From NCBI RefSeq assembly GCF_963675165.1, contig NC_087377.1, forward strand, positions 16,658,518 to 16,722,517: a DNA stretch of 64,000 nt, read 5' to 3'. This document shows, in pieces, positions 308 through 44,858 of this stretch. The notes below the pieces were generated by a model. That model saw only the letters and a program-made list of their open reading frames with translations, searched no databases and had not been told where the DNA came from. The stretch is from Halichondria panicea. Taxonomy: Eukaryota > Porifera > Demospongiae > Suberitida > Halichondriidae. Within the stretch, counting starts at the first letter, position 1, and every line of letters begins with the position of its first letter. The position numbers were made by a program, and so were the translations under genes.

Positions 308-997
308 CTAGCAGATGAAGCGGGTATGGGTTATATCGGTGCTGTCATAGGTGCAGCTAGCAGTTGTGAGGATGGTGGAACTGAGGGACATAGGCTCGGG
401 AACCAGGTTGCGACTCAGCCAATGCTCAGCTGAGTGAGGGTTCACTGCAGCTTTGTCTTCACTCACACGACTACTGGTCATTTCACTTATACGCTTGTCC
501 AGGTGACAGCGAAGCTCTTCCAGGTGTCCATAGAGACGGAACTTGGTGCAAGCTTCTCTTATCTCTGGGACGGTGCAGGAGGGGACAAACGTGTCGCCAG
601 TAGTTTGTCTCACCCAGCTGCAGGTGCTGTTGAGACTCCTCCAGGCAACATACTGGTTGGCTTTGTAGCCCTCCAGGAGGGGACTGTCTAGGGGGGTGGT
701 CAACACACTGTAGGAGTGGTGAATGTAGCGATCGTATACATAGCAGAGTGCTTCTTGCTCCAGATAGAACGTTTCGTCGCATTCTCCTTTCGGTACTGAT
801 ACAGGGCCAAAGAATTGTATACACTCTGAGAATTTTCCTGGGCAGAAAGTTCCCCTGGCAACTTTCCTCATCATATACAAATTGTCATTTATTGCCTCCA
901 TTTTCTCGACTTCTTCATCAGTAAATGATTGGCTTTTGACGGGGACGGCCTGGCAGTGGAGGAGATAAAGAGCGAGGAGAAAGATAAATGTCTTCAT
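308..997 (-). CDS. Family A secreted cysteine-rich protein, copy A1 (inverted)
   Basis: A 229-aa intronless ORF, nearly identical to A2-A4 but on the opposite strand and at the left edge of the array. It has a hydrophobic signal peptide (residues 1-17, ending CQA), the CYVYDR motif and all ten mature cysteines of the family. Unlike the other A copies the dibasic KR after the signal peptide is KS (VPVKSQS), so a Kex2/furin-like cut would be lost. The C-terminus reads RFIC rather than RFDC/RFNC. A TATTTAAG-like box lies about 100 bp upstream on the minus strand (near 1095-1102). Its 3' flank matches that of A5 and differs from those of A2-A4. Function unknown; secretion is inferred from the signal peptide. 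Confidence 0.8.
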   Translation of the reverse strand: MKTFIFLLALYLLHCQAVPVKSQSFTDEEVEKMEAINDNLYMMRKVARGTFCPGKFSECIQFFGPVSVPKGECDETFYLEQEALCYVYDRYIHHSYSVLTTPLDSPLLEGYKANQYVAWRSLNSTCSWVRQTTGDTFVPSCTVPEIREACTKFRLYGHLEELRCHLDKRISEMTSSRVSEDKAAVNPHSAEHWLSRNLVPEPMSLSSTILTTASCTYDSTDITHTRFIC

Positions 998-1440
998 GAT
1001 CGTTGGAGATGATATAGTTATCGTTGATTACTGATTATCAATGGTTAATTGTTGATGTTTGCAGTTGTGTGGAGAATGGCTGAGGGCAAGTGCTTAAATA
1101 TGAGTCTCATCCCTGGGGTAGCTAGGGAACGTAACGTGCCTCACTGCTATCTCTCCTGGCCCAGTTAATGAGAAATGATGTAACGAGATATTCAAATGAG
1201 ATTAATGTCAAGTTCAATTTGTTGTCTTAGTAACACGGACAAACATTTTGTACTTCCTTCCAGGATATGCAGTGGTGCTATGGCCAGTATGTGCACTATA
1301 GCCGCAGGTTTTAAGTTAATGATATTCATTGATTCTGGATGTATTACGTAACTAAGGAAGCCGACAGACTATAGACTATAGTCTGTCTATAGTAAGAAAG
1401 TAATACTGAAAGAAGAAGTACAGTATATATAATAGTTATA

Positions 1441-1571
1441 GACACTGTTTATAGGAAGTTTCTATACATGATTTAGAAGTCCAAAGGACTGGTTGTAGTA
1501 TCCCGAACGCAGTGAGGATTCTACTAGCCCTGAGGACTTCTAAATCATGTGGAACTTCCTAAACAGTGTCT
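1441..1571. repeat. Fold-back (MITE-like) element
   Basis: The left arm starts GACACTGTTTATAGGAAGTT and the right arm ends with its near-complement AACTTCCTAAACAGTGTC. The inner arms also pair (ATGATTTAGAAGTCC against GGACTTCTAAATCAT). Total length is about 131 bp with a loop near 1490-1530. No coding capacity. Confidence 0.7.
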
Positions 1572-1642
1572 AAGCATTTTAGATCATAGCAACCGTCAGT
1601 ATTTTAGCCAATCAGATTTGAATGTTCTTATCTAATCTTTGC

Positions 1643-1721
1643 TACATGATTTTCTAAGTGAAGTACATGATTTTCTAAAGTAAGTACATGATTTTCTAAA
1701 TAAGTACATGATTTTCTAAGT
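1643..1721. repeat. Short tandem repeat, about 20-bp unit, four copies
   Basis: The motif TACATGATTTTCTAA recurs four times with small spacers (GTGAAG, AGTAAG, ATAAG). Imperfect minisatellite; no other function visible. Confidence 0.7.
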
Positions 1722-1795
1722 TGGATGAACACTTTCTTTAGCCAATCAAATTGCAGTATTTATGGCAAACATGATCTAAACGTAGCTTATAGAGG

Positions 1796-1847
1796 CTAAT
1801 ACACACACCCCACCCCCACACCCACACCCACACACACACACACAACC
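1796..1847. repeat. CA-rich microsatellite
   Basis: A run of CA and CCA units interrupted by C tracts. Confidence 0.8.
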
Positions 1848-3505
1848 CTGATTAGCAAAGTGTTTGCACACTTGTAGGAGCTGTTACGGTACGGTAAACA
1901 TCTATGCAGGGCTTCTGTTGCTATACGTACGCACTATTCTTCTAAATCACACATTGTTAGTTTATAGGACACACACAATAATCAAAAGAAAGTCCATTGA
2001 TTGACTTTCTACGTTATTTCCTATATACAATAACTACGTATATACCACAAAGGTTACCAAGTAAGTAATTGAAAACGCATTAATTTGGCAAGTCACTAGA
2101 TAAGCGATAATAACATGCCATGCATGTGAATGTGAACATTAGACTATAATTATAGAGTGTTCTAGAATGGTGTGTGGTAGGCTTTGCACATTTAAAGTGC
2201 CGGGGGAGAGGACTACTATACATACGTACGCTAACACCATGCCGACTAAAAATAATAGAAATAATGATATTCATGAGATTTCCCAGTAAGTGATTAAAAA
2301 TTTCTGGCTCTCCATGGAAACTGGATCACATGCTCTTAATTGATAGTTCTTTGGGAAATGGAAATGGAGATGATACAGATAGTGCCTAAAAGTAACATTC
2401 CATACATTTTATCAGTCCGTGAAATCTATACATGTTGTAAGGCCATGCAGAAGTAAGAATGAGAACTACCCCTTTTAAAACCTGAAGTACACTGCAATTA
2501 GGATACGGAGTAAACACAGAGGGGACTTTTTCAACCAGCACTTGTTAGTCCCAATTGTGAACTCACCAAACCTGTTTGTCTATAGACGCACATATAATTA
2601 TAGATAGTGATTTCAGAGGAGCAATAATTTTTTAAGTTTTCCCAATGGTGACGAAATTGCATGCATGGCTGGTTATAGCGAATATACATTAATGTACAAC
2701 CTGAGTGTGTATATTAGTTATAGGTGCATGCATGGCTATACTGGGAAATGTTTTTTGAAAGGCTGGCAAAGTGCAGATTTTGATAATGATTTCATGGATC
2801 ACCATTGGCAATAATTTTTCCCAATGGTGAATTACGGGTACGTGGCTATTGGGGAAACGATTCTTTGAAAGGAGCTATAATTATACAGAATGGAATAATT
2901 ATTAGGAGGGAAGGTTTGTTCTGACGACAACTGAGCTAGCACAGCTGGAACATAATTATGTAATGGAGAACTCTGAATATGAAAAATAATATCGTTCATG
3001 TAAGCTGATTGAGCAGTATACATGCATGTACGGTAACGAGATTAATACAACAATGTTGATACTGAAGCCAAGCACAAACATACACATATGTATACATGCA
3101 TGCAAGACATTAATTGCATGTACAGCTTCAAACAACAACCTTAGTATATATGTATTGTACACATTGAAACACTAGAAGACTGCAAGCAGACTGCAGACTT
3201 AAAAATTCAAATTCTTAGAGTAATGTGATCCTAATAAAAATTCCAACACCAATTAATTAATCCATTGCCGTAAGTTCTGAATGGAAGGATTCTTTACATA
3301 GTTAAGCTGCCCCCAGATCAGGAACTAACCCTGAGGCTGGGCTTTAATGAATTGTTGCTAAGATATCCTGGATGCAATATTATGAACACTGATATTAAAT
3401 TTTTCATATTCAGAGTTCTCCATTACATAATTTCTCATTAACTGGGCCAGGAGAGATTGTAGTGAGGCATGTTACGTTCCCTAGCTACCCCAGGGATGAG
3501 ACTCA

Positions 3506-3513
3506 TATTTAAG
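3506..3513 (+). promoter_or_regulatory. TATA-like box of A2
   Basis: TATTTAAG about 96 bp upstream of the A2 ATG. The same box at the same spacing precedes A3 (10683-10690) and A4 (23585-23592). In every copy it is followed by a conserved stretch containing CTCAGCCATTCTCCA, the likely transcription start area. Confidence 0.55.
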
Positions 3514-3608
3514 CACTTGCCCTCAGCCATTCTCCACACAACTGCAAACAGCAACAATTAACCATTGATAATCAGTAATCAACGATAACTATATCATCTC
3601 CAACAATC

Positions 3609-4301
3609 ATGAAGACATTTATTCTTCTCCTCGCTCTTTATCTCCTCCACTGCCAGGCCGTCCCAGTCAAAAGGCAATCATTATTTACTGATGAAGAAGT
3701 TGAGAAAATGGAGGCAATAAATGACAATTTGTATATGATGAGGAAAGTTGCCAGGGGAACTTTCTGCCCAGGAAAATTCTCAGAGTGTATACAATTCTTT
3801 GGCCCTGTGTCAGTGCCGAAAGGAGAATGCGACGAAACGTTCTATCTGGAGCAAGAAGCACTCTGCTATGTATACGATCGCTACATTGACCACTCCTACA
3901 GTGTGTTGACCACCTCCCTAGACAGTCCCCTCCTGGAGGGCTACAGAGCCAACCAGTACGTTGCCTGGAGGAGTCTCAACAGCACCTGCAGCTGGGTGAG
4001 ACAAACTACTGGCGACACGTTTGTCCCCTCCTGCACCGTCCCAGAGATAAGAGAAGCTTGCACCAAGTTCCGTCTCTATGGACACCTGGAAGAGCTTCGC
4101 TGTCACCTGGACAAGCGTATAAGTGAAATAACCAGTAGTCGTGTGAGTGAAAACAAAGCTGCAGTAAACCCTCACTCAGCTGAGCATTGGCTGAGTCGCA
4201 ACCTGGTTCCCGAGCCTATGTCCCTCAGTTCCACCATCCTCACTACTGCTAGCTGCACCTATGACAGCACCGATATAACCCGTACCCGCTTCGACTGCTA
4301 G
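3609..4301 (+). CDS. Family A secreted cysteine-rich protein, copy A2
   Basis: A 230-aa intronless ORF; reference copy for family A. Residues 1-17 form a signal peptide ending HCQA. VPVKRQ follows, with dibasic K21-R22 as a possible proprotein cleavage site, then a TDEE acidic stretch at 27-30. Mature cysteines are at 53, 60, 74, 86, 127, 142, 151, 165, 216 and 230 (the last residue). C86 lies in LCYVYDRY; C127/C142/C151 form the core shared with families B and C. One N-glycosylation sequon (N124-S-T). The ATG at 3609 is conserved in all intact A copies and directly precedes the signal peptide. It lies upstream of B1 on the same strand. The family is not one I recognise; an extracellular, disulfide-bonded product is inferred. 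Confidence 0.85.
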   Translation: MKTFILLLALYLLHCQAVPVKRQSLFTDEEVEKMEAINDNLYMMRKVARGTFCPGKFSECIQFFGPVSVPKGECDETFYLEQEALCYVYDRYIDHSYSVLTTSLDSPLLEGYRANQYVAWRSLNSTCSWVRQTTGDTFVPSCTVPEIREACTKFRLYGHLEELRCHLDKRISEITSSRVSENKAAVNPHSAEHWLSRNLVPEPMSLSSTILTTASCTYDSTDITRTRFDC

Positions 4302-5328
4302 TGAAACTCCACCTCCTCTCCTGTGGTATTGCTTTTACATTGGAAGTACTTGAAACAGTGACTACATTATTAGGTCATGACTTGTGTTGGATTGTATCAA
4401 TCTTCACCAAATGTATATATATCATCTAATATTATGCTATTAGAATTATTTTTTTATGATGCATTTTTATACTGCCTATATTGCTTTTTCTGTACAAAAT
4501 GAAATTCTATGATTATAATAATATAACTGAAAATGAATATAATTATACGTACAATTAACAAACACAACACACAACACAACAACACTCAAGAAGTATACTA
4601 ACACATAATCACTATCATAAATCTAACGTATTTACTTTTTAAATAATAACATGGCATGCACACTATATATGTATATATATCCGACATTATATAGGAGAGT
4701 CCCAAGTTGTTGTCACGGTAATAGAGCCACTAAAACAGTGGGCGGTGTACATAATCAATTGCATGTATATATACATAGGCTGAAATTGACCGCTCGTTAA
4801 ATCATACTATTTATTGCCAAGGTAATGATGATAATGAATCTATTTATTGCAATAGCAAAAGGCGTAGGCTACAGGAATGCATGGAATGTTCACTTAAAGT
4901 GTTTTCTTTTTGTTCTGTTTTTTCTTCGTTACTACGCATGGGGGATAATTATTTAGCGTTCTTTGTCTATTAATAGAACCAGGAGCACATGAAGGAGCAA
5001 CTACTATACACACCATATCAATTTGTTATTGTCTCATTACGTCACAAACACTTGTAAACTGTGCATGGTTTGACATGACCATGTATGGCTAAGGCTAAGG
5101 CAGGCTACGATCAGAAATTCTACCACATGTGCATGCTTGCGCAATACCTGTTTTCAGTGCCGTCGTATACAGCCACTTGAGATGTGGGCGTTACACAACA
5201 TAGTTTGACAGAGCTAGTGAGACAACAACACGTTTGTAAGGGCTGTACAGCATGCAGTTGCCCACTCCCCTCATGTATACTCCTGATAGAACTCAGAATC
5301 AGGCATGGTGCTTACACTGGTACAGAGG

Positions 5329-5467
5329 ATTTCAAGTTGGTTGGCAGAAGTTAAAAGTTGAAGTGCAGTCAACCATGACCACTAATTACATTAAACACAC
5401 ACGGTATGTGGTCATGGGGTTGCATGAGTGCATTTCAACTTTTAACTTCTGCCAACCAACCTGAAAT
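5329..5467. repeat. Inverted-repeat element, copy 1
   Basis: Arms of about 38 bp: the left arm begins ATTTCAAGTTGGTTGGCAGA and the right arm ends TCTGCCAACCAACCTGAAAT. An inner pairing around CATGACCAC / GTGGTCATG extends the stem. A MITE-like fold-back that was carried along when the block duplicated. Confidence 0.75.
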
Positions 5468-6170
5468 TCTCTGTAGGTGGTGAGTGATGGTGCATGGTGC
5501 ACTGTACTAACAAAATAACCAACAGCCTATACTAAAGAGGTGTGTTGTATTGAGATTGAGGATTAAAATAGCCACCACTTAGGGCATCCTGCACAGACAG
5601 AGAGGGCAACAGGATGTGCGATCATGCATGCAAGCAGCCAGAGAAGGGCTTGTGCGCAAATATCAGCAAATTTGCAGTTTGCAAGCACTTAAGCCGCTTC
5701 CATAAAAGGAAGTGCAGTTTCACCGGCAATTACGAAACATGATCCTGAGTATACGTTGAAGTTAGCCGCTCCTTCTCTTATTTATGGGCTCCTGTATAAA
5801 CAGAGTCTTGTTTCTGGGGTTCCACTCGATCACGAGGTCATTGAATATCACCACGGAGTTTAATTACTTTCCCTTCGATGTGGGCCAAGGATCATTTAAT
5901 AAGCAACTAACTTTAAAAGTGATAAACATATTGTTGTTCAATCTATTCTTACAAAGCCTCTCTTCTTGACAACCAACTACATTGTGCTGGCATGCGTGTC
6001 GATTAAACGGCTAATGAATATCGGATCATTAACATACCACCCACACAAACTGTGTTTATTATCCTGGTTTCTAAGACGACAACTTACAATGAATAAACTT
6101 AATATTCTAATCGGTTAGAACATTCCTAGCAGACGCGCTGAGAGATCTTAGTTACAGGGGCAAAACTATG

Positions 6171-6178
6171 TATATAAG
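6171..6178 (+). promoter_or_regulatory. TATA box of B1
   Basis: TATATAAG, about 155 bp before the B1 ATG, followed by the conserved GTCAGTGGGGGAACACATTC. Identical boxes precede B2 (13301-13308) and B3 (26194-26201). Confidence 0.6.
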
Positions 6179-6325
6179 TCAGTGGGGGAACACATTCACA
6201 ACAAAACAAAAACAAATCTCAAAGGAGAAGAAAGAAAAGAACAAAGAAAGTACTTCCGCAATAAAAATCCAACAATAAAAATCCAACAATTCGAAAAAAA
6301 ACTTCACCGATTAAAGAAACTCATC

Positions 6326-6994
6326 ATGAACTACATGGCACTCGTTCTTTCCCTCATCGTTTGCCTCCTCCACGTTCAAGCGGCTCCAGTAAAGAGACAA
6401 CTCTCTACAGATGAAGAAGCCGGCAACCTGGAGGTCGTTAACAGAGCCTTGATCCTAACACACGGCGAATCCATGCGGCCATCGTACAGCCTTCCAAACT
6501 TCCTCATTGGTCAAAAAGTGCTGTGTTACATGTACGACCGACACAGTGACTTCTACCACAGTCTGCAAGACGGTCTTAGAAGCCACTCGGAATACAGCAG
6601 TGATACTGTGGAGGAATTCATTCTGAAGTACACAGATGGGGAGAGCATCACCGGGGAACTTAGCGAACAACTGGCTGACCTCGCTAGCAAAGAGTACATC
6701 GGAAGAGAGATACTTGGCCGGACATGTCGCTGGGTGCAACCACGCTCAAGTGGTTTTGTGAGCAGCTGTTCCGTCTCGCAAATTTCTCAAAGCTGCGCTC
6801 GATACCGGCTGCAAGAAAAGCACGAAGAGGTAGTACCGCTGTTTGACAATTATTCCCGAGCCTTTGGAGTGGAGGGGAGGCTGGTGGGCCGAATTGCAAA
6901 CTGTCAGTGGCTGAACCCCAACCCCAACATACCACAGGCAATCATTGAAAAGATTAACAAGAATGGAAAAGTGGATACAACCGATTGCAATTAA
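6326..6994 (+). CDS. Family B secreted cysteine-containing protein, copy B1
   Basis: A 222-aa intronless ORF; reference for family B. The frame is open further upstream, but the ATG at 6326 is preferred because it directly starts the signal peptide (residues 1-19, ending HVQA) and is the only start conserved in B2 and B3. APVKRQL follows, with dibasic K23-R24, then TDEE. Six cysteines: 67 (LCYMYDR), 134 (TCRWV), 148 (SCSV), 157 (SCARYR), 193 (NCQWL) and 221 (next to last residue). They align with six of the ten in family A, including the same 8-residue gap between the third and fourth. The NYS sequon at 175-177 is specific to this copy. It is convergent with C1. Role unknown. Confidence 0.83.
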   Translation: MNYMALVLSLIVCLLHVQAAPVKRQLSTDEEAGNLEVVNRALILTHGESMRPSYSLPNFLIGQKVLCYMYDRHSDFYHSLQDGLRSHSEYSSDTVEEFILKYTDGESITGELSEQLADLASKEYIGREILGRTCRWVQPRSSGFVSSCSVSQISQSCARYRLQEKHEEVVPLFDNYSRAFGVEGRLVGRIANCQWLNPNPNIPQAIIEKINKNGKVDTTDCN

Positions 6995-8291: not shown

Positions 8292-8390
8292 TGTAGTGGC
8301 TGTCAGTTTGGTTGGAGTAAATTCTGAACTGAAATTCTTTCTCTATTGCTGGAGAGGATGGTTGGATGACTGCTCTCTGTTTGCTGGGCC

Positions 8391-8398
8391 TTATATAC
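8391..8398 (-). promoter_or_regulatory. TATA box of C1
   Basis: On the minus strand the sequence reads TTGTATATAAGGCCCAGC, about 100 bp before the C1 ATG. The same element is found upstream of C3, C4, C5, C6, C8 and C11, and about 920 bp upstream of C9 because of an insertion. Confidence 0.6.
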
Positions 8399-8981
8399 AA
8401 GAGAGTTGGTAGCTAGGAAACACGTATTGTACAGAACGCCATATCTCTAATATTATGAGCGCAAAGCCCGTGCAGTAAATTACAAGTAAAACGAAGTCAC
8501 TAGTATCGATGAAGTATGACTGTATGTGCGTACAGGTGGACAAAATGTAAACATATTGCACCTATACGGATAATTTCATGACCACAACATTATGCATGTA
8601 CATACATGTACGAGGCTAGTTGTGTTAATTTTCTTAAGAAATATGCCCCAAGAAGCGCTTGCATCAATCCTTTCCATGAACATCATGCCAATTAGATATA
8701 ATCACATTCATTAACTAATTAACACCCACAGACCGTGTGTTCGTATCCTATTGTATTATCCTTATTTAGAGCTTATAACTGGAAGTCAATTTTGAATACA
8801 TATAACAATGGTCATGTTGTATGCAAAAATTGGGAAATGATTTAAGCTTCCAGTATGTGATAATGCAAGGTACCGCACACCCCCACAATACGTAACCATG
8901 GCACCTGAGCCACCTGTACAGTGTACACTATAGGCTAGTCCATACACTGCAGGTCAATTAGTCTAACATTTTTGGTTATAG

Positions 8982-9095
8982 TGAAAAGTGGATATAAACG
9001 ATTGCAACTGAGAGAACTTTTATCCCAACATACCACAGGCAATCATTAAAAAGATTAACAAGAATGGAAAAGTAGATACAACCGATTGCAATTAA
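8982..9095 (+). pseudogene. B 3'-end stub between C1 and C2
   Basis: Two partial copies of the last codons of family B. A short one (8982-9022, GAAAAGTGGATATAA type) is followed by a longer one (about 9024-9095) that ends with the B stop codon. The body of B is absent. It marks the edge of the tandemly amplified C unit. Confidence 0.7.
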
Positions 9096-9897: not shown

Positions 9898-10463
9898 CTA
9901 CAAAATGTATTGTTCATTCATACATTCATCACAGTTAACAGACTGATAGCCTTCACGTCCGTTGCATTCTGATTGGTTAATGTTTGCCAAGTCATGGATC
10001 TCACAAACATTGAGGGAAGCCATGCAAGGGGGCACGCCCTGAGGCTGTAGCCACACGCATCTGTCAGCAAAGCCGGCACTGCTATTCAAATCACCGCTCA
10101 CATAGACATCGTGAATGTCGGCAATTTCAATCGCACTTTTCCCCATGATGATCCTGTAGATATTGCACATTCTCTTGACAGTAGGAACAGTGCACTCACG
10201 GAGGAGTGTGTCGTCTAGGAAACGGACTAATTCGCATGATTGGACGACACTCTGCTCTGCGATGTATTTGAGACTGGAGCGACTGTAATTAGAGGGGCGT
10301 GGCATCAACTGAGCATCTATGAGAAGGAACCGATCGTACATGTGACATACTACCTCATGGCCACGGGTAAAATTGAAATCTATCGGAAGAGACGCCTGGA
10401 AGTGGTTATCGAGACTACCCATCACCGCGGTTATGCTGTTCACCACTGCTATCAATTCTTGTA
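9898..10463 (-). pseudogene. Family C copy C2, 5'-truncated
   Basis: Matches C1/C3 from about residue 30 to the C-terminus, but the signal peptide and promoter are missing. At about 10463 the sequence switches abruptly to the A-type upstream region. An ORF of 185 aa is still open from an internal ATG (MIAVVNSITAV). The normal TGA stop has become TGT, adding nine residues (CMNEQYIL and so on). Without a signal peptide it is unlikely to act like its relatives. Confidence 0.75.
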
Positions 10464-10787
10464 AAATATCATTAACTTAAAACCTGCGGCGATAGTGCAC
10501 ATACTGGCCATAGCACCACTGCATATCCTGGAAGGAAGTACAAAAATGTTTGTCCGTGTTACTAAGACAACAAATTGAACTTGACATTGAATATCTCGTT
10601 ACATCATTTCTCCATTAACTGGGCCAGGAGAGATTGCAGTGAGGCCCGTTACGTTCCCTAGCTACCCCAAGGATGAGACTCATATTTAAGCACTTGCCCT
10701 CAGCCATTCTCCACACAACTGCAAACAGCAACAATTAACCATTGATAATCAGTAATCAACGATAACTATATGTCATCTCCAACGATC

Positions 10788-11480
10788 ATGAAGACATTTA
10801 TCCTTCTCCTCGCTCTTTATCTCCTCCACTGCCAGGCCGTCCCCATCAAAAGGCAATCATCATTTACTGATGAAGAAATTGAGAAAATGGAGGCAATAAA
10901 TGACAATTTGTATATGATGAGGAAAGTTGCCAGGGGAACTTTCTGCCCAGGAAAATTCTCAGAGTGTATACAATTCTTTGGCCCTGTGTCAGTGCCGAAA
11001 GGAGAATGCGACGAAACGTTCTATCTGGAGCAAGAAGCACTCTGCTATGTATACGATCGCTACATTGACCATTCCTACAGTGTGTTGACCACCTCCCTAG
11101 ACAGTCCCCTCCTGGAGGGCTACAGAGCCAACCAGTACGTTGCCTGGAGGAGTCTCAACAGCACCTGCAGCTGGGTGAGACAAACTACTGGCGACACGTT
11201 TATCCCCTCCTGCACCGTCCCAGAGATAAGAGAAACTTGCACCAAGTTTCGTCTCTATGGACACCTGGAAGAGCTTCGCTGTCACCTGGACAAGCGTATA
11301 AGTGAAATGACTAGTAGTCGTGTGAGTGAAAACAAAGCTGCAGTGAACCCTCACTCAGCTGAGCATTGGCTGAGTCGCAACCTGGTTCCCGAGCCTATGT
11401 CCCTCAGTTCCACCATCCTCACTACTGCTAGCTGCACCTATGACAGCACCGATATAACCCGTACCCGCTTCAACTGCTAG
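10788..11480 (+). CDS. Family A secreted cysteine-rich protein, copy A3
   Basis: A 230-aa ORF almost identical to A2. An in-frame ATG lies 18 bp further upstream (10770), but the start at 10788 is aligned with all other A copies and with the signal peptide. Differences from A2 include VPIKRQSS, EIEKME and FIPSC. Dibasic KR is retained, as are all ten cysteines and the NST sequon. It is separated by only about 325 bp from truncated C2, so its upstream region is shortened compared with A1. Confidence 0.85.
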   Translation: MKTFILLLALYLLHCQAVPIKRQSSFTDEEIEKMEAINDNLYMMRKVARGTFCPGKFSECIQFFGPVSVPKGECDETFYLEQEALCYVYDRYIDHSYSVLTTSLDSPLLEGYRANQYVAWRSLNSTCSWVRQTTGDTFIPSCTVPEIRETCTKFRLYGHLEELRCHLDKRISEMTSSRVSENKAAVNPHSAEHWLSRNLVPEPMSLSSTILTTASCTYDSTDITRTRFNC

Positions 11481-13443: not shown

Positions 13444-14112
13444 ATGAACTACACGGCACTTGTTCTTTCCCTCATCGTTTGCCTCCTCCACGTTCAAGCG
13501 GCTCCAGTAAAGAGACAACTCTCTACAGATGAAGAAGCCGGCAACCTGGAGGTCGTCAACAGAGCCTTGATCCTAACACACGGTGAATCCATGCGGCCAT
13601 CGTACAGCCTTCCAAACTTCCTCATTGGTCAAAAAGTGTTGTGTTACATGTACGACCGACACAGTGACTTTTACCACAGTCTGCAAGATCGTCTTAGAAG
13701 CCACTTGGAATACAGCAGTGATACTGTGGAGGAATTCATTCTGAAGTACACAGATGGGGAGAACATCACCGGGGAACTTAGCAAACAACTGGCTGACCTC
13801 GCTAGCAAAGAGTACATCGGAAGAGAGATGCTTGGCCGGACATGTCGCTGGGTGCAACCACGCTCGAGTGGTTTTGTGAGCAGCTGTTCCGTCTCGCAAA
13901 TTTCTCAAAGCTGCGCTCGATACCGGCTGCAAGAAAAGCACGAAGAGGTAGTACCGCTGTTTGACGATTATGCGCGAGCCTTTGGAGTGGAGGGAAGGCT
14001 GGTGGGCCGAATTGCAAACTGTCAGTGGCTGAACCCCAACCCCAACATACCACAGGCAATCATTGAAAAGATTAACAAGAATGGAAAAGTGGATACAACC
14101 GATTGCAATTAA
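13444..14112 (+). CDS. Family B secreted cysteine-containing protein, copy B2
   Basis: 222 aa, starting at the conserved ATG. Differs from B1 at a few sites: MNYTAL, DRLRSHLEY, GENITGE (a new NIT sequon), REML, DDYARAF. All six cysteines and KR at 23-24 are present. Converges on C3. Confidence 0.85.
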   Translation: MNYTALVLSLIVCLLHVQAAPVKRQLSTDEEAGNLEVVNRALILTHGESMRPSYSLPNFLIGQKVLCYMYDRHSDFYHSLQDRLRSHLEYSSDTVEEFILKYTDGENITGELSKQLADLASKEYIGREMLGRTCRWVQPRSSGFVSSCSVSQISQSCARYRLQEKHEEVVPLFDDYARAFGVEGRLVGRIANCQWLNPNPNIPQAIIEKINKNGKVDTTDCN

Positions 14113-16141: not shown

Positions 16142-16239
16142 GTTATAGTGAAAAGTGGATATAACGGATTGCAACTGAGAGAACTTTTATCCCAAAGATT
16201 AACAAGAATGGAAAAGTGGATACAACCGATTGCAATTAA
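16142..16239 (+). pseudogene. B 3'-end stub between C3 and C4
   Basis: The degenerate double stub of the B C-terminus (GAAAAGTGGATATAAC, then AAGATTAACAAGAATGGAAA to the stop), lacking the rest of B. Confidence 0.65.
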
Positions 16240-17064: not shown

Positions 17065-17684
17065 TCATTCATCACAGTTAACAGACTGATAGCCTTCACG
17101 TCCGTTGCATTCTGATTGGTTAATGTTTGCCAAGTCGTGGATCTCACAAACGTTGAGGGAAGCCATGCAAGGGGACACGCCCTGAGGTTGTAGCCATACG
17201 CATCTGTCAGCAAAGCCGGCACTGCTATTCAAATCACCGCTCACATAGACATCGCAATTTCAACTGCACTCCTCCCCATGACGATCCTGTAGATATTACA
17301 CATTCGCTCGACACTAGAAACAGTACACTCGAGGAGGAGTGTGTCGTCTAGGAAACGGTCTAATTTACATGATTGGACGACACTCTGCTCTGCGATGTAT
17401 TTGAGACTGGAGCGACTGTAATTAGAGGGGCGTGGCATCAACTGAGCATCTATGAGAAGGAACCGATCGTACATGTGACATACTACCTCATGGCCACGGG
17501 TAAAATTGAAATCCATTGGAAGAGACGCCTGGAAGTGGTTGTCGAGGCTACCCATCACCGCGGTTATGCTGTTTACCACTGCTATCAATTCTTGTAGTCT
17601 ATCATTTGTTTCTCTTTTGACAGGAACGGCGTCAGCGTGAAGGAGAGAAAGAGCGAGAAGAGGAATCAATGCAAGGTAATTCAT
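17065..17684 (-). pseudogene. Family C copy C4, frameshifted
   Basis: Signal peptide and promoter intact (MNYLALIPLLALSLLHADA, VPVKRETND), open to about residue 144. A 10-bp deletion near 17252 (ATCG-CAATTTC instead of ATCG-TGAACGTCGG-CAATTTC) then shifts the frame and stops translation. The remaining C-terminal codons to the original stop at 17065-17067 are still recognisable. The truncated product would lack the last five cysteines. Confidence 0.8.
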
Positions 17685-18404: not shown

Positions 18405-18514
18405 TGAAAAGTGGATATAACCGAGTGCAACTGAGAGAACTTTTATCCCAACATACCACAGGCAATCATTGAAAAGATTAACAAGAATGGAAAAGTGGAT
18501 ACAACCGATTGCAG
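18405..18514 (+). pseudogene. B 3'-end stub between C4 and C5
   Basis: Two partial copies of the last B codons. The downstream one is cut just before the stop (GATTGCAGAGAAC rather than GATTGCAATTAA). Confidence 0.65.
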
Positions 18515-19311: not shown

Positions 19312-19941
19312 TCATTCATCACAGTTAACAGACTGATAGCCTTCACGTCCGTTGCATTCTGATTGGTTAATGTTTGCCAAGTCGTGGATCTCACAAACGT
19401 TGAGGGAAGCCATGCAAGGGGACACGGCCTGAGGCTGTAGCCACACACACCTGTCAGCAAAGCCGGCACTGCGATTCAAATCACCGCTCACATAGACATC
19501 GTGAACGTCGGCAATTTCAACTGCACTCCTCCCCATGACGATCCTGTAGATATTACACATTCGCTCGACACTAGAAACAGTACACTCGGGGAGGAGTGTG
19601 TAGTCTAGGAAACGGACTAATTTGCATGATTGGACAACACTCTGCTATGCAATGTATTTGAGACTGGAGCGACTGTAATTAGAGGGGCGTGGCATCAACT
19701 GAGCATCAACGAGAAGGAACCGATCGTACATGTGACATACTACCTCATGGCCACTGGTAAAATTGAAATCCATTGGAAGAGACGCCTGGAAGTGGTTGTC
19801 GAGGCTACCCATCACCGCGGTTACGCTGTTCACCACTACTATCAATTCTTGTAGTCTATTATTTGTTTCTCTTTTGACAGGAACGGCGTCAGCGTGAAGG
19901 AGAGAAAGAGCGAGGAGAGGAATCAATGCAAGGTAATTCAT
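19312..19941 (-). pseudogene. Family C copy C5, single nonsense codon
   Basis: Full-length (630 bp) and collinear with C3 and C6, but codon 99 (GAG, Glu, in KYIAEQS) is TAG, at 19645-19647. The remainder stays in frame to the normal stop. A second change (D to Y in RFLDDT) is present. Otherwise signal peptide, KR site, cysteines and promoter are intact, so the inactivation looks recent. A sequencing error cannot be excluded. Confidence 0.8.
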
Positions 19942-20657: not shown

Positions 20658-20768
20658 GTGAAAAGTAGATATAACCGATTGCAACTGAGAGAACTTTTAT
20701 CCCAACATACCACCTGTAGGCAATCAGATTAACAAGAATGGAAAAGTGGATACAACCGATTGCAATTA
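20658..20768 (+). pseudogene. B 3'-end stub between C5 and C6
   Basis: Same double stub as the other C spacers, with a small insertion (CACCTGTAGGCAATC). Confidence 0.65.
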
Positions 20769-21589
20769 ACTGAGAGAACTTTTATCTTTATACAGTGTGC
20801 CATATACGCTGACACGATTAGGTATATACAAACACTTTGTATACATGTAGTACATGCATGTACATATGTAGCTAGACTTTTAGACTATAGGTCAAGTCAA
20901 AAATAAGTGTCAAACGACCTTAAATCTGAACATACTAACTTATATACACCTCTCCAAGGGCTACTAAATGCATCTTTTAATTGTGAAATTGGGTCTTCCT
21001 AACACAAGTTGTGGACAGTCAAAGACACCAATCCCATTCATGCACAGTATATAGGCAAACTAAACACGTCCAGAATAATTATAAAAACAAAAAGTTATAA
21101 GGAATGTGGTCATATCCTCTCACACACAGACAGCTGGATATCACTATTCACGACTCAATTAAGAAAATATGCAATGGCTTCTTAAAGGTGGATTACATTC
21201 ATAGCTTGGTTGCTAAGAAGACTGGTAATTAGGGAATTTTATGGAAATGGAACTTCCATTTCCAGTATGGAAGTACAATCATGTTTTGAGTGGGTGACTC
21301 AAATACCTGAGACAAATGGCCAGCTACTATAATAAGATTCGAGCTATAAAGATAATTATTTAGCTTAGGAAAGATAAAACAAATTATTATATAGCTATTA
21401 TACATAAAAACTAAAAATCTATAACATGGCTAACGTACATGTAGTTTAAATCTAGCTACACAACATGGCTAATGATACAAGATAGGGCTAGCTAGTCTAC
21501 ACAATGTTTATATTTACATGCTATAATTATAATAACACAAGTTAGGGAAAGCTACAAAATGTATTGTTCATTCGCATTCATTCATTCAT

Positions 21590-23050: not shown

Positions 23051-23324
23051 TCATTGGTCACAAGTAACAGATTGATAGCCTTCTCGTCTGTTGCATTCTG
23101 ATTGGTTAATGTTTGCCAAGTCGTGGATCTCACAAACGTTGAGGGAAGCCATGCAAGGGAATACGCCCTAAAGCTGTAGCCATACGCATCTGTCAGCAAA
23201 GCCGGCACTACTATTCAAATCATCGCTCACATAATCTATCAGAAGAGACGCCTAGAAGTGGTTGTCGAGGCTACCCATCACCGCGGTTATGCTGTTCACC
23301 ACTGCTATCAATTCTTGTAGTCTA
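23051..23324 (-). pseudogene. Family C copy C7, internally deleted and 5'-truncated
   Basis: The C-terminal part is recognisable from the stop (23051) to about SDDLN. About 270 bp are then missing, and the sequence resumes near FQASLPID and runs to about residue 29 before joining the A-type upstream region. No signal peptide or promoter. C10 has the same two breakpoints. Confidence 0.8.
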
Positions 23325-23686: not shown

Positions 23687-24379
23687 ATGAAGACATTTAT
23701 CCTTCTCCTTGCTCTTTATCTCCTCCACTGCCAGGCCGTCCCTGTCAAAAGGCAATCATCATTTACTGATGAAGAAGTTGAGAAAATGGAGGCAATAAAT
23801 GACAATTTGTATATGATGAGGAAAGTTGCCAGGGGAACTTTCTGCCCAGGAAAATTCTCAGAGTGTATACAATTCTTTGGCCCTGTGTTAGTGCCGAAAG
23901 GAGAATGCGACGAAACGTTCTATCTGGAGCAAGAAGCACTCTGCTATGTATACGATCGCTACATTGACCACTCCTACAGTGTGTTGACCACCTCCCTAGA
24001 CAGTCCCCTCCTGGAGGGCTACAGAGCCAACCAGTACGTTGCCTGGAGGAGTCTCAACAGCACCTGCAGCTGGGTGAGACAAATTACTGGCGACACGTTT
24101 GTCCCCTCCTGCACCGTCCCAGAGATAAGAGAAGCTTGCACCAAGTTTCGTCTCTATGGACACCTGGAAGAGCTTCGCTGTCACCTAGACAAGCGTATAA
24201 GTGAAATGACCAGTAGTCGTGTGAGTGAAAACAAAGCTGCAGTGAACCCTCACTCAGCTGAGCATTGGCTGAGTCGCAACCTGGTTCCCGAGCCTATGTC
24301 CCTCAGTTCCACCATCCTCACTACTGCTAGCTGCACCTATGACAGCACCGATATAACCCGTACCCGCTTCGACTGCTAG
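23687..24379 (+). CDS. Family A secreted cysteine-rich protein, copy A4
   Basis: 230 aa. KR site, ten cysteines and the NST sequon retained. Distinguishing changes are GPVLVPKG (S to L, shared with A5) and VRQITGD. Preceded by the C7 fragment and the A promoter (TATTTAAG, 23585-23592). Confidence 0.85.
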   Translation: MKTFILLLALYLLHCQAVPVKRQSSFTDEEVEKMEAINDNLYMMRKVARGTFCPGKFSECIQFFGPVLVPKGECDETFYLEQEALCYVYDRYIDHSYSVLTTSLDSPLLEGYRANQYVAWRSLNSTCSWVRQITGDTFVPSCTVPEIREACTKFRLYGHLEELRCHLDKRISEMTSSRVSENKAAVNPHSAEHWLSRNLVPEPMSLSSTILTTASCTYDSTDITRTRFDC

Positions 24380-26335: not shown

Positions 26336-27004
26336 ATGAACTACACGGCACTCGTTCTTTCCCTCATCGTTTGCCTCCTCCACGTTCAAGCGGCTCCAGT
26401 AAAGAGACAACTCTCTACAGATGAAGAAGCCGGCAACCTGGAGGTCGTCAATAGAGCCTTGATCCTAACACACGGCGAATCCATGCGGCCATCGTACAGC
26501 CTTCCAAACTTCCTCATTGGTCAAAAAGTGCTGTGTTACATGTACGACCGACACAGTGACTTTTACCACAGTCTGCAAGACGGTCTAAGAAACCACTCGG
26601 AATACAGCAGTGATACTGTGGAGGAATTCATTCTGAAGTACACAGATGGGGAGAGCATCACCCGGGAACTTAGCGAACAACTGGCTGACCTCGCTAGCAA
26701 AGAGTACATCGGAAGAGAGATGCTTGGCCAGACATGTCGCTGGGTGCAACCACGCTCGAGTGGTTTTGTGAGCAGCTGTTCCGTCTCGCAAATTTCTCAA
26801 AGCTGCGCTCGATACCGGCTGCAAGAAAAGCACGAAGAGGTAGTACCGCTGTTTGACGATTATGCGCGTGCCTTTGGAGTGGAGGGAAGGCTGGTGGGCC
26901 GAATTGCAAACTGTCAGTGGCTGAACCCCAACCCCAACACCCCACAGGCAATCATTGAAAAGATTAACAAGAACGGAAAAGTGGATACAACCGATTGCAA
27001 TTAA
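26336..27004 (+). CDS. Family B secreted cysteine-containing protein, copy B3
   Basis: 222 aa, all six cysteines and KR. Differs from B1 and B2 at LRNHSEY (a new NHS sequon), ESITREL, GQTCRW and NPNTPQ. Converges on C8. Confidence 0.85.
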   Translation: MNYTALVLSLIVCLLHVQAAPVKRQLSTDEEAGNLEVVNRALILTHGESMRPSYSLPNFLIGQKVLCYMYDRHSDFYHSLQDGLRNHSEYSSDTVEEFILKYTDGESITRELSEQLADLASKEYIGREMLGQTCRWVQPRSSGFVSSCSVSQISQSCARYRLQEKHEEVVPLFDDYARAFGVEGRLVGRIANCQWLNPNPNTPQAIIEKINKNGKVDTTDCN

Positions 27005-29240: not shown

Positions 29241-29342
29241 TGAAAAGTGGATATAATCGATTGCAACTGAGAGAACTTTTATCCCAACATACCACATGCA
29301 GGCAATCATTGAAAAGAAGTGGATACAACCGATTGCAATTAA
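29241..29342 (+). pseudogene. B 3'-end stub between C8 and C9
   Basis: Double stub of the last B codons, with an internal deletion removing the AACAAGAATGG part. Confidence 0.65.
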
Positions 29343-30807: not shown

Positions 30808-31601
30808 TACCCGAGGCGCGCGTGGGCGGCCACGGGTATAGTAGTCTGTTGGTCTGTTTGTTTGTTTGTTTGTCACAGGTATATCTACTCACCTGGATGC
30901 CACATCACTGCGTTTACAGCATGGATAGCCTTCACACAACAATATCTTGATTTAAATAGTGGCAGATTTTGCTGTTAAAGCTTCTTTCAATCTTTGTCGA
31001 GCAAAAGCTAAGAAGCTTGAATAAGCTTGTGACTAGGTCTGCTTACCTGGATGCTCTAGCACTGCGTTTACAGCATGAGTAGCCTCCACACAACAAGTTA
31101 GTACTTTTGATAGTGACAGCTTTCGGTGTTAAAGCTCCTTTGTCCAATAAAAGCGAGCAAAATGTAGCTTGAACAGAACTTGCACATGCGTTACTTATAA
31201 CTGAAGTGATCCTGTACCAAGAAAACGATGGAACAGGGTCACTAAAGTAGAAAGCTATATATACCAGGAACAATGGAACAGGGTCACTAAAGTAGAAGCT
31301 TGAATTATAGCTCCTGCTGCTGACTGGGATCCTACTCCATGCAGAACCTGGAGCCATACTTCTCTGAGACTCCAGGCTTCTTTACTGTGATCCTAATCCA
31401 TAGTGCATATATCTGTAGTACCACTACCTGTTCTCAAAATGTTTCAGCATGCCTCCAGTCTGGTTTAGTTTTATTGCTCCTGAGTTGCTGTGCAAGTCAT
31501 ACATGATAACAACATCACTATATGCACTGCATTATATTTCTGGTTTCTTTTTAATCATGTCACCATGTACCAGCCGAGGGTTTGCACTTTAGTGCTCTAG
31601 T
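30808..31601. mobile_element. Inserted repeat element upstream of C9
   Basis: Absent from all other C promoters, where AATTCATT continues directly into GTTTTCGTTTAGTGG. It starts with a GC-rich head (CCCGAGGCGCGCGTGGGCGG) and a TTTG run. Two tandem copies of a roughly 140-bp unit follow, each with a GCGTTTACAGCATG core and a TAGCCTYCACACAACAA motif, then a duplicated GGAACAGGGTCACTAAAGTA, and it ends near GCACTTTAGTGCTCTAG. Parts of it recur at 55070-55150 and (ending, inverted) at 53710-53740 and 57615-57640. No coding domain seen; probably a non-autonomous element, class undetermined. Confidence 0.65.
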
Positions 31602-32404: not shown

Positions 32405-32678
32405 TCATTGGTCACAAGTAACAGATTGATAGCCTTCTCGTCTGTTGCATTCTGATTGGTTAATGTTTGCCAAGTCGTGGATCTCACAAACGTTGAGGGA
32501 AGCCATGCAAGGGGACACGCCCTGAGGCTGTAGCCATACGCATCTGTCAGCAAAGCCGGCACTGCTATTCAAATCACCGCTCACATAAATCTATCGGAAG
32601 AGACGCCTGGAAGTGGTTGTCGAAGCTACCCATCACCGCGGTTATGCTGTTCACCACTGCTATCAATTCTTGTAGTCT
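32405..32678 (-). pseudogene. Family C copy C10, internally deleted and 5'-truncated
   Basis: Same structure as C7: the C-terminal part, then a deletion of about 270 bp, then a short segment around FQASLPID and RLQEL, then a junction to the A-type upstream region. It was duplicated together with the neighbouring A copy. Confidence 0.8.
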
Positions 32679-33065
32679 AGTCTGTCGGCTTCCTTAGTCA
32701 CGTAATACATCCAGAATCAATGAATATCATTAACTTAAAACCTGCGGCTATAGTGCACATACTGGCCATAGCACCACTGCATATCCTGGAAGGAAGTACA
32801 AAAATGTTTGTCCGTGTTACTAAGATGTCCGTGTTACTAAGACAACAAATTGAACGTAACATTAATCTCATTTGAATATCTCATTATATCATTTCTCGGC
32901 CAGGAGAGATAGCAGTGAGGCACGTTACGTTCCCTAGCTACCCCAAGGATGAGACTCATATTTAAGCACTGGTCCTCAGCCATTCTCCACACAACATTCT
33001 GCAAACATCACCAATTAACCATTGATAATCAGTAATCAACGATAACTATATCATCTCCAACGATC

Positions 33066-33755
33066 ATAAAGACATTTATCCTTCTCCTCGCTCTTTATCT
33101 CCTCCACTGCCAGGCCGTCCCTGTCAAAAGGCAATCATCATTTACTGATGAAGAAGTTGAGAAAATGGAGGCAATAAATGACAATTTGTATATGTTGGAA
33201 AGTTGCCAGGGGAACTTTCTGCCCAGGAAATTCTCAGAGTGTATACAATTCTTTGGCCCTGTGTTAGTGCCGAAAGGAGAATGCGACGAAACGTTCTATC
33301 TGGAGCAAGAAGCACTCTGCTATGTATACGATCGCTACATTGACCACTCCTACAGTGTGTTGACCACCTCCCTAGACAGTCCCCTCCTGGAGGGCTACAG
33401 AGCCAACCAGTACGTTGCCTGGAGGAGTCTCAACAGCACCTGCAGCTGGGTGAGACAAACTACTGGCGACACGTTTGTCCCCTCCTGCACCGTCCCAGAG
33501 ATAAGAGAAGCTTGCACCAAGTTCCGTCTTTATGGACACCTGGAAGAGCTTCGCTGTCACCTGGACAAGCGTATAAGTGAAATAACCAGTAGTCGTGTGA
33601 GTGAAAACAAAGCTGCAGTGAACCCTCACTCAGCTGAGCATTGGCTGAGTCGCAACCTGGTTCCCGAGCCTATGTCCCTCAGTTCCACCATCCTCACTAC
33701 TGCTAGCTGCACCTATGACAGCACCGATATAACCCGTACCCGCTTCAACTGCTAG
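33066..33755 (+). pseudogene. Family A copy A5, start codon lost, compensated frameshift
   Basis: The conserved ATG is ATA (33066-33068). A 2-bp deletion after LYM and a 1-bp deletion in the CCAGGAAATTC region together remove one codon and garble about 14 residues between them, after which the normal frame resumes to the stop. All downstream cysteines survive. The first usable ATG is residue 34, giving a 196-aa product without a signal peptide. GPVLVPKG is shared with A4, indicating a common recent source. Confidence 0.82.
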
Positions 33756-34599: not shown

Positions 34600-34815
34600 T
34601 ATTCGAAGCACCTTTGATGAAACGATTATATGGATCTGGCTTAGGTACAGGTATGTGCATCTTCGAAGCAAGCTGAGCCTATTTCTTCAGACGAAAAAAC
34701 GATGCTATGATCAAGTCAGCAATTTGGTACACATGAAACAAGTCGAAACAATAACATTCAACTTTCTAATACTTTTCAGCTTTGCTTGTGTACATATTCA
34801 ATCTGCTTGTATTAT

Positions 34816-35422
34816 TATTATGCCTCGAGGCGTAGCCGCAGGAGGGATACGGTAAAGCTGACTGTGTGTGTGTCTGTCTGTGTGTGTGTGTGTGTATTCC
34901 AGCAGTAACTGCTCAACGGTTGCAATGCGACGAAAACTAACAGCTTCTATAGGCTTCTAGCCACGTTCTCTTGGATTTTGATTCGTGGATTAGCAAACTA
35001 AAGCTTCTTTCTCGAGTTATGGCTAGTTTGACTCACATTAAAGGCTGTTGCAGTCTCTTCAGAATCTTTCATAGCATCATCTGTCCGTACAAACTTTCTA
35101 TTCAACATATGAGTTAGCCTTGCACTAAAGCGCTAGCTTTTTGTTAGCTACAAGATATTATATACACTGAACTACAGATCCTGGAAGAATCAATTTTCTT
35201 CTTTCTTGAGGTCCTGGTAAGCCACATAATACAACAATAGATGCATGTAAATAAGTCTTTTCTTCTCAGTGACTTTATATATAGATAAGCTAACTTTCAT
35301 TATAGATAACACTCTAATACTTTTGAGCGAAAGCAAAAACATGGCGAGAGGCATTAGCACAGCGCCAGCTTGAACACTAGTTATAATTATGATGACATTC
35401 AGATTCAATCTGCTTGTATTAT
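34816..35422. mobile_element. Retroposon-like insertion with 20-bp target-site duplication
   Basis: The 20-bp sequence ATTCAATCTGCTTGTATTAT occurs at 34796-34815 and again perfectly at 35403-35422, flanking about 587 bp. The insert starts with TATTATGCCTCGAGGCGTAG, a GC-rich head followed by a TG/CTGT run. This head resembles the start of the insert at 30808. No reverse transcriptase is present. A long TSD is the signature of target-primed insertion (SINE or truncated LINE). Confidence 0.7.
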
Positions 35423-35590
35423 GGTTGTTTGATTAAAAAGTGTGCATTAACAAACCAACTTAAAGCACACTTAACCAACTTAGAGCACACTTAAGTGTGG
35501 ATTAAGTTATTTAATCCATGGTCACCTGACTGCTTTCAGATAAGCTGATTGGCTGGAGATCATGTGATGAGCACTAATATACCATAATTA

Positions 35591-35864
35591 TACTGTATAG
35601 CGGGAAATTTTCGCTATTTGGCCCAGAGCCCTTAGCAGAAATTTTCGTGGGTATAGCGGGTAATTTTCGTTGGTGCAAATTTTCGTATGAACAACCTATT
35701 TAAATATTTCAGATTTTTAATTTAGTACAGCTCAGGATAGTGACATTGAACCTATTGCGGTAGAATAATTTCGTAGTTTTAATTTTCATATGATGCTCTT
35801 TAATACGAAATTATCATACGAAAATTCAAGTTCCACCATCCAAAAATAACCCGCTATACGGTAC
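35591..35864. mobile_element. MITE with TATAGCGGG-type terminal inverted repeats
   Basis: The left end reads TACTGTATAGCGGGAAATTT; the right end complements to GTACCGTATAGCGGGTTATT. About 274 bp, no ORF. Related termini are visible near 42285 and 52846. Confidence 0.65.
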
Positions 35865-35904
35865 TTCTCTGAATCTTCATGAGTACAAAAGTGCACAACG
35901 GGTA

Positions 35905-36268
35905 TTGTATAAATCAGAGTCTTGTTTCTGGGGTTCCACTCGATCACGAGGTCATGGAATATCACCACGGAGTTTAATTACTTTCTCTTTGATGTGGAAC
36001 AAGGATCATTTAATAAGCAACTAACTTTAAAAGCGATAAACATATTGTTGTTCAATCTATTCTTACGAAGCCTCTCTTCTTGACAACCAACTACATTGTG
36101 CTGGCATGCGTGTCGATTAAACGGCTAATGAATATCAGATCATTAACATACCACCCACACAAACTGTGTTTACTGATTGTCAGTGGCTGAACCCCGACCC
36201 CAACATACCACAGGCAATCATTGAAAAGATACAAGAATGGAAAAGTAGATACAACCGATTGCAATTAA
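35905..36268 (+). pseudogene. Family B copy B4, nearly all coding sequence deleted
   Basis: The B upstream region (35905 to about 36172) is joined directly to the last roughly 30 codons of B (GTCAGTGGCTGAACCCCGAC onward to TAA at 36266-36268). Signal peptide and five of six cysteines are gone. A further 2-bp deletion sits in the AAAAGATTAACAAG stretch. Confidence 0.8.
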
Positions 36269-37046
36269 CTGAGAGAACTTTTATGTAACACAATTAGGCG
36301 TACAAACACTTTGTATAGATGTAGTATACATGCATGTGCATGTATAGCTAGACTTTTAGACTATAGACTATATCAAAATCAAAAATAAGTTTCAAACGAC
36401 CTTTAACTATAATTATAAATAAACACACTAACTTGTAGACCTCTCTAAGGGCTAATAAATGCATCTGGGTGTTCCTAATAAAAGTTGTAGACAGTCGAAG
36501 ATACCAATCCCAATCTAAACACATCCAGAATAATTATAAAAACAACAGTTATAAGGAATGTGGTCATATCCTCACACACAGACAGCTGGTTAATACGAGC
36601 GGATATCACTATTCATGACTCAATTAAGAAAATATGCAATGGCTTCTCAAAGGTGGATTACATTCATAGCTTGAACTACTTGGTTGCTAAGAAGACTGGT
36701 AATTAGGGAATTTTATGGAAATGGAACTTCCATTTCAAGTTCCATTTCCAGTACGGAAGTACAATCATGTTTTGAGTGGGTGACTCAAATACCTGAGACA
36801 AATGGCCAGCTACTATAATAAGACTATAGAGCTATATACATAATAATTATTAGCTTAGGAAAAATAATAAAACTATATAGCTACAGTGTACGGCATAAAA
36901 ACTATAATATACATGGCTAACAAACTCATTGGGTCATACACAATTATTATATTTACATGGCTAATGATAACAAGACAGGGCTAGCTATATATATTTACAT
37001 GGCTAATGATACAAGTTAGGGGTAGCTACAAAATGTATAATATCGT

Positions 37047-37661
37047 TCATTCATCACAACTAACAGACCGATAGCCTTCTCGTCCGTTGCATTCTGATTG
37101 GTTAATGTTTGCCAAGTCGTGGATCTCACAAATGTTGAGGGAAGCCATGCAAGGGGACACGGTCTGAGGCTGTAGCCACACACACCTGTCAGCAAAGCCG
37201 GCACTACGATTCAAATCACCGCTCACATAGACATCGTGAACATCGGCAATTTCAACCGCACTTTTCCCCATGACGATCCTGTAGATATTGCACATTCTCT
37301 TGACACTAAAAACAGTGCACTCACGGAGGAGTGTGTTGTCTAGGAAACGGACTAATTCGCATGATTGGACGACACTCTGCTCTGCAATGTATTTGAAACT
37401 GGAGCGACTGTAATTAGAGGGACGTGGCATCAACTGAGCATCTACGAGGAGGAGCCGATCGTACATGTGACATACTACCTCATGGCCACGGGTAAAATTG
37501 AAATCCATTGGAAGAGACGCCTGGAAGTGGTTGTCGAGGCTACCCATCACCGCGGTTACGCTGTTCACCACTGCTATCAATTCTTGTAGTCTGTCATCAG
37601 GAACGGCGTCGGCGTGAAGGAAATAAAGAGCGAGCAGAGGAATCAATGCAAGGTACTTCAT
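37047..37661 (-). CDS. Family C secreted cysteine-rich protein, copy C11
   Basis: 204 aa, intact. Like C1 it begins MKYLALIPLLALYFLHADA and lacks the KR codons (VPDDRLQ). Copy-specific residues include LDNTLLREC, FSVKRM and QTVSPCM. It is the last array copy on the right, as C1 is the first on the left, and the two are each other's closest match at the N-terminus. Confidence 0.82.
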   Translation of the reverse strand: MKYLALIPLLALYFLHADAVPDDRLQELIAVVNSVTAVMGSLDNHFQASLPMDFNFTRGHEVVCHMYDRLLLVDAQLMPRPSNYSRSSFKYIAEQSVVQSCELVRFLDNTLLRECTVFSVKRMCNIYRIVMGKSAVEIADVHDVYVSGDLNRSAGFADRCVWLQPQTVSPCMASLNICEIHDLANINQSECNGREGYRSVSCDE

Positions 37662-44572: not shown

Positions 44573-44845
<273 letters not shown>

Positions 44846-44858
44846 AAGTACAATGCAG

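Follow-up and report, generated by a model that had tools for sequence, protein, structure and literature searches.

What kind of gene family occupies the tandem array of about 37 kb in the window studied here, how did the array grow, and why have so many copies been kept? The window is the whole 64,000-nucleotide stretch that was analyzed (contig C1, positions 16658518-16722517, of a genome of 131,455,214 bases in 39 contigs, from an animal that may be a sponge). A preliminary description had placed three unrecognized families of secreted proteins, A, B and C, in the array, with at least 20 copies and fragments, twelve of them open. With a single representative of each family as the query, both as protein and as gene, 25 copies and fragments were mapped in the window between positions 308 and 37661, and the array is therefore real. 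Seventeen of these are long copies (five A, three B and nine C, of which one C is 5′ truncated, one is frameshifted and one contains a stop), and eight are short fragments (two C copies with an internal deletion and six B 3′ tails). Thirteen of the 17 long copies, rather than twelve, are open and begin with a hydrophobic leader (A1-A4, B1-B3, C1, C3, C6, C7, C8 and C9), with frames that run for 204 to 230 amino acids (aa) when counted from the ATG as aligned. Shuffling these 38.3 kb 30 times gave a maximum frame of 185 aa, and the longest frame per shuffle averaged 121 aa. We propose that the array represents a locally amplified, single-locus family, probably secreted and soluble, that comprises three old branches.

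Although three separate families had been described, comparison of A, B and C pointed to one. By tblastn the three are approximately 22-30% identical to one another (E ~1e-4 to 1e-15), and in a 13-row alignment the B and C rows are 26-30% identical to A2. Invariant positions include four cysteines (C86, C127, C142 and C151 of A2), YD at 89-90 and R155, and a later C-x-W-L-x-P motif is common to B and C. Outside the leader, the branches differ from each other by 0.50-0.55 at replacement sites and 0.77-0.85 at silent sites, and thus their split is old relative to the copies within each branch. Trees of the C copies and of the A copies contained no well-supported branches. An internal repeat in the proteins is only suggestive, as its score was reached by 3 of 500 shuffles for B, 37 of 500 for C and 337 of 500 for A. 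We conclude that, as judged by alignment, A, B and C are homologous branches of a single family.

The branches are arranged in repeated blocks. Positions 3423-10473 and 10599-17606 are 94% identical, and positions 10377-14669 and 23233-27570 are 95% identical. In a comparison of two blocks, divergence per 250-base window was 0.4-6.5% with a maximum upstream of C1, and it was spread over both coding and spacer DNA, the outcome to be expected if whole blocks were duplicated and not if the genes alone were converted. The block order is A, B and then C on the opposite strand, and successive blocks carry two, five, three and one C copies, long or partial. A remnant of the B gene end, spanning 90-113 bases, lies on the 3′ side of C2x, C4x, C5x, C6, C8 and C9, and C1, C3 and C7 are instead preceded by a whole B gene. 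The six C copies with a remnant argue that C spread within blocks together with the B tail, in a cassette of about 2.2 kb. Most simply, the ancestral block would have been duplicated by unequal exchange, and the cassette would have multiplied by itself within the blocks. We conclude that an A-B-C block was the starting point of the array and that the 2.2-kb cassette of B tail and C increased in number inside it, a point absent from the preliminary description.

Decay can be followed in the same copies. Three C remnants located beside A genes, 315-387 bases from the A start (ends at 10473, 23324 and 32679), break off near codon 23-28, just after the leader. One internal deletion is common to the two C fragments, and therefore the loss itself was copied. 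A1 is 96% identical to A2 and represents only the A cassette, in inverted orientation, as its similarity to other A copies extends 186-381 bases upstream and 105-170 bases downstream. Tandem expansion with fast turnover, as earlier proposed, holds for copy number because inactivated and truncated copies stand among near-identical open ones.

The leader has a history of its own in two of the branches. By blastn, the only DNA similarity between A and C was a leader-coding stretch of 48-58 bases at 78-81% identity. Between A2 and C6, 5.0 of 16.8 silent sites differ in the first 27 alignment columns (0.30), as against 92.9 of 108.8 in the remainder (0.85; Fisher p 4.8e-6 after rounding). The same comparison of leader and remainder was weaker for B and C (p 0.03) and not significant for A and B (p 0.24). 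The similar stretch ends approximately at a VPVKR-type site, and for A and C the leader is more conserved than the body, as in the precursors of toxins and antimicrobial peptides. Either exchange by conversion or a constraint on the mRNA in that region can explain the likeness. We conclude that the leaders of A and C are alike even at silent sites, which is likewise new.

Selection on the recent copies was estimated as the ratio of replacement to silent substitution rates (dN/dS), by pooled Nei-Gojobori counts over whole frames from 13 of the 17 long copies (A5, C2x, C4x and C5x were omitted, and C8 was kept). The ratio was 0.34 for A (four of five copies; bootstrap 0.16-0.76), 0.25 for B (three of three; 0.11-0.51) and 0.27 for C (six of nine; 0.18-0.43), with bootstrap ranges that are rough because the compared pairs are related. 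Silent changes were approximately three to four times denser per site than replacements. Residues 211-230 of A gave a dN/dS of 0.98 from small counts. Among the copies compared, no cysteine was lost or gained in A or B, and one cysteine column varied in C. Positive selection on the mature region, as in toxin families, was not indicated by these whole-frame ratios. We conclude that recent copies are under purifying selection. Of the two pressures offered in the preliminary description, diversity is not supported, the main evidence against it being these ratios, whose bootstrap ranges all lie below 1, and dosage fits better.

A TATATAA- or TATTTAA-type box was found 102-155 bases before the ATG in 16 of 16 long copies that have a 5′ end, the 17th copy, C2x, having none. 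The distance is 102-107 bases in A, where the box is the weaker TATTTAA, 142-155 in B and 106-126 in C; in C8 an insert of about 0.8 kb stands between the box and the ATG, and the distance was measured from the far side of that insert. The 16 boxes amount to three observations because copies within a branch are not independent. The word TAGCTACC upstream of the box is common to A and C, and the pattern TAGCTACC-N8..19-TATATAAG occurs eight times genome-wide, seven of them in the array, compared with one occurrence of a reversed control. By eye, no related open reading frame was seen in the 3 kb examined around the lone outside match (locus L087), where the gene, to judge from a motif, may be SPRING/C12orf49-like. 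In alignments of promoters, the observed score was reached by 20 of 300 shuffles for A2-C6 and 4 of 300 for A4-C1 and, in a second test of 500 shuffles each, by 27 for A2-C6, 9 for A2-B1, 484 for B1-C6 and 4 for A4-C1. A common promoter origin upstream of the ATG is thus unproven.

Taken together, the unit of the array may be described as a gene cassette that would consist of a TATA box, a short 5′ untranslated region (UTR), a single-exon frame, a leader with mostly a VPVKR-type site and a cysteine-rich body. It had been stated that all copies were intronless and had signal peptides and TATA boxes. Every coding frame is indeed a single exon, with room for introns in the 5′ UTR. Leaders are present in the 13 open copies but not in C2x, the C fragments or the B tails, and A5 has ATA in place of ATG. 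Boxes are present wherever a long copy has a 5′ end but not in C2x, and that of C8 stands behind the insert.

Properties of the predicted proteins were measured on one copy per branch (A2, B1 and C6), with the leader judged by composition. Each has a hydrophobic leader followed by no membrane span, and the mature chains, of about 185-211 residues, have masses of 24.2, 23.0 and 21.3 kDa, isoelectric points (pI) of 5.4, 5.6 and 4.8, and 10, 6 and 9 cysteines, respectively. In most copies a VPVKR-type dibasic site closes the leader. Six prohormone convertases are reported for the demosponge Amphimedon queenslandica (PMC6850559), and cleavage of the leader at KR is therefore plausible, by analogy, if the host is a sponge. 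We infer secretion, disulfide bonding, dibasic processing and inducibility.

No significant match to A2, B1 or C6 was found in Pfam, NCBIfam or PHROGs, where matches at E 0.08-0.26 were unrelated and taken as chance, and the best Pfam match to any of the 13 open copies (E 0.06) was also unrelated. Searches of the Protein Data Bank (PDB) by sequence and by profile gave nothing below an E of 1, and matches to TFIIB and MSL3 at E ~1 were taken as chance. No relatives were found in viral contigs or prokaryote genomes by searches that begin from short degenerate patterns, and because of that seeding, distant relatives may be missed. In the portions of the literature available on tandem, intronless or lineage-specific secreted sponge families, none was recognized as the A/B/C family. 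The family had been called unrecognized, and the profile search suggested at the time returned no clear match to a known one; the description stands for Pfam, NCBIfam, PHROGs, PDB sequences and the viral and prokaryote contigs. We conclude that the A/B/C family appears to be an orphan across the libraries searched.

The family also appears to be confined to one locus. The whole genome was searched with one protein per branch, with matches listed to an E of 10 and the best candidates scored, and no further copies were found among those candidates outside contig C1, positions 16658828-16696178. One lone weak match elsewhere (locus L020) was in a frame that looked transposon-like by eye and was taken as chance. 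When the unit at 3400-10600 was compared with the genome as DNA, the only outside matches, among the 39 of 476 candidates scored, were a pair of short repeats from the spacer between A and B, and the idea that the unit is transposon cargo is unsupported. In the same scored candidates, both spacer repeats, at 5321-5480 (82-86% identity) and 5673-5807 (88-94%), were genome-wide; the former matched the same places in inverted orientation as well, at 75-80%, in the manner of a fold-back element.

Long single-exon frames are not peculiar to the array because, among 47 Peptidase_C1 matches in the genome, 15 span at least 195 of 220 positions without a stop. The matches fall on contigs C3, C6, C8, C9, C12 and C15, with seven of the 15 long ones clustered at 493-521 kb of contig C8, and a silicatein signature, sought as a mark of sponge origin, was absent from the four cathepsin-like genes read of the 47 matches, a result that speaks neither for nor against a sponge. 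Beyond the right end of the array, the window contains minisatellites at 38308-38996 (45-base units) and 46525-48246 (91-base and 157-base units), a 121-aa frame at 44569-44934 that is mostly a long GT/CA repeat and not a gene, a protein kinase domain at 50151-50828 with Kelch repeats after it on the same strand at 51860-52729 (Pfam; possibly one gene), and a 382-aa open frame at 62650-63798 that matched nothing in Pfam at E 0.001.

Table 1. Genes, remnants and promoter elements of the array, by position in the window
Feature	Position	Strand	Remarks
A1	308..997	-	open, 229 aa; orientation opposite to that of the other A copies
A2 TATA-type box	3506..3513	+	TATTTAAG at -103; all five A copies have a homologous box, between -102 and -107
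A2	3609..4301	+	open, 230 aa
B1 TATA box	6171..6178	+	TATATAAG at -155; B2 at -143, B3 at -142
B1	6326..6994	+	open, 222 aa
C1	7677..8291	-	open, 204 aa; without the pro-segment with KR
C1 promoter block	8390..8415	-	TAGCTACC-N10-TATATAAG
B 3′-tail remnant	8983..9095	+	span of two blastn hits
C2x	9923..10473	-	5′ truncated at ~codon 27; leader and promoter absent; frame continues past usual stop
A3	10788..11480	+	open, 230 aa; extra in-frame ATG 18 bases upstream
B2	13444..14112	+	open, 222 aa
C3	14809..15438	-	open, 209 aa
B 3′-tail remnant	16150..16239	+	span of two blastn hits
C4x	17065..17684	-	frameshift near codon 145
B 3′-tail remnant	18406..18513	+	span of two blastn hits
C5x	19312..19941	-	one in-frame stop
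B 3′-tail remnant	20660..20769	+	span of two blastn hits
C6	21590..22219	-	open, 209 aa
C fragment	23051..23324	-	internal deletion (~codons 59-149); no leader
A4	23687..24379	+	open, 230 aa
B3	26336..27004	+	open, 222 aa
C7	27905..28534	-	open, 209 aa
B 3′-tail remnant	29242..29342	+	span of two blastn hits
C8	30178..30807	-	open, 209 aa; separated from its promoter by insert
Insert, ~0.8 kb	30808..31600		between C8 ATG and 5′ UTR plus TATA promoter, which resume at ~31601
C fragment	32405..32679	-	same internal deletion as in 23051-23324
A5	33066..33755	+	ATA as start codon; ~12 near-N-terminal codons in another frame; otherwise ~95% identical to A2
B 3′-tail remnant	36178..36268	+	
C9	37047..37661	-	open, 204 aa; without the pro-segment with KR

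Why the copies were kept can be answered only tentatively, and the reading we favor is a dosage-type array that encodes extracellular effectors or signals, soluble, acidic and rich in cysteine. Surplus copies would be retained since more product is useful, while purifying selection maintains the protein and excess copies are steadily lost. The product would most likely be an effector or signal, defensive or cytokine-like, that is turned out in quantity when needed from a locus organized like an interferon cluster. We infer both dosage as the reason for the copies and the role in defense or signaling. Several observations weigh against this reading. No known effector or cytokine relative was found in Pfam or among PDB sequences, and the secondary-structure propensities of A2, B1 and C6 are mixed and not clearly helical by a simple method. 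The dibasic site is absent from C1 and C9 and is KS in A1, and thus is not essential. AATAAA and ATTAAA are absent within 400 bases downstream in 14 of 14 copies, in a scan with no shuffle control that covered 14 of the 17 long copies (C2x and C4x were left out, and A1 is too close to the end of the window). Finally, the 30-codon windows A 121-150 and B 91-120 contain replacements only, from very small counts.

One alternative, unlikely but a serious contender, is bulk structural secretion, in which components of the extracellular matrix or skeleton were amplified for dosage. The acidic, cysteine-rich chains, the leader, the purifying selection and the TATA-type promoters would all suit such components, and acidic secreted SCRiPs of corals were proposed to act in biomineralization on similar grounds (PMC2652719). 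No Pfam domains were detected, however, matrix domains included, no repeat or acidic run was seen by eye, and three diverged branches side by side would seem to fit specialized soluble factors better.

Unlikely, too, is mostly neutral amplification and decay, by which unequal crossing-over repeatedly copied a modestly important gene, with no function for the number of copies. The blocks are just a few percent apart, the 17 long copies include four broken ones (A5, C2x, C4x and C5x), the promoter of C8 is lost and eight short fragments persist, all as expected of such a process, but 13 frames are still open, and the excess of silent over replacement changes argues against it. Least likely of the three is an array driven by diversity, whether through allorecognition or through a venom-like or antimicrobial arms race. 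Tandem expansion with pseudogenes, a conserved A-C leader on bodies near silent-site saturation (a conserved leader beside a variable body is described for conotoxins and myticalins in PMC10561478 and PMC5577615) and the replacement-only windows would favor it, but dN/dS is below 1 in all three branches, no membrane span follows the leader, and the products, at 21-24 kDa and pI 4.8-5.6 in one copy per branch, are not cationic peptides of the kind in PMC5577615.

Taxon-restricted secreted families in tandem are a kind of locus already familiar. What this one offers is a single array of an unmatched family in which one can trace, from copy to copy, how genes were duplicated, shared a leader and decayed, and if its expression proves to be inducible, the family would become a testable candidate for extracellular defense or signaling outside the known cytokine families.

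Three known systems invite comparison, and membership is claimed in none of them. Like the array proteins, coral SCRiPs are taxonomically restricted and cysteine rich and have a leader, with a convertase-type site in almost all and a low pI in some (PMC2652719). Their mature chains are 41-48 residues, however, approximately 4-fold shorter than the 185-211 found here, so that on length, rather than on cysteine spacing, the array proteins lack the short cysteine-rich mature domain, and at least one SCRiP gene, Mfav-SCRiP1, has an intron where the array frames are single exons (PMC2652719). Conotoxin and myticalin precursors likewise join a conserved leader to diverged bodies, with a Lys-Arg site in myticalins, but conotoxin genes mostly have three exons and myticalin genes are split by introns (PMC10561478, PMC5577615). 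The array differs from both in its purifying selection and its larger, acidic bodies.

Of the three systems, the interferon locus comes nearest to the array in organization, the array being a single-exon tandem cluster with pseudogenes under purifying selection, and the likeness is one of organization, not of membership. Interferon genes are intronless. No sequence relationship to interferons was found in Pfam or the PDB, and most array copies, unlike interferons, have a basic pair after the leader. It is a long shot, but an early-branching animal may have adopted the logic of an interferon cluster, with a TATA-driven single-exon array of three kinds of secreted factor unrelated to known cytokines, amplified to allow fast bulk release, and with leader exchange between branches. 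The bovine type I interferon locus, with 24 potentially functional IFNW genes alone, holds more copies than the array, and its IFNA and IFNW clusters resemble the array in encoding secreted proteins from one region, in subfamilies, with inverted gene sets, many pseudogenes and purifying selection (PMC2680415).

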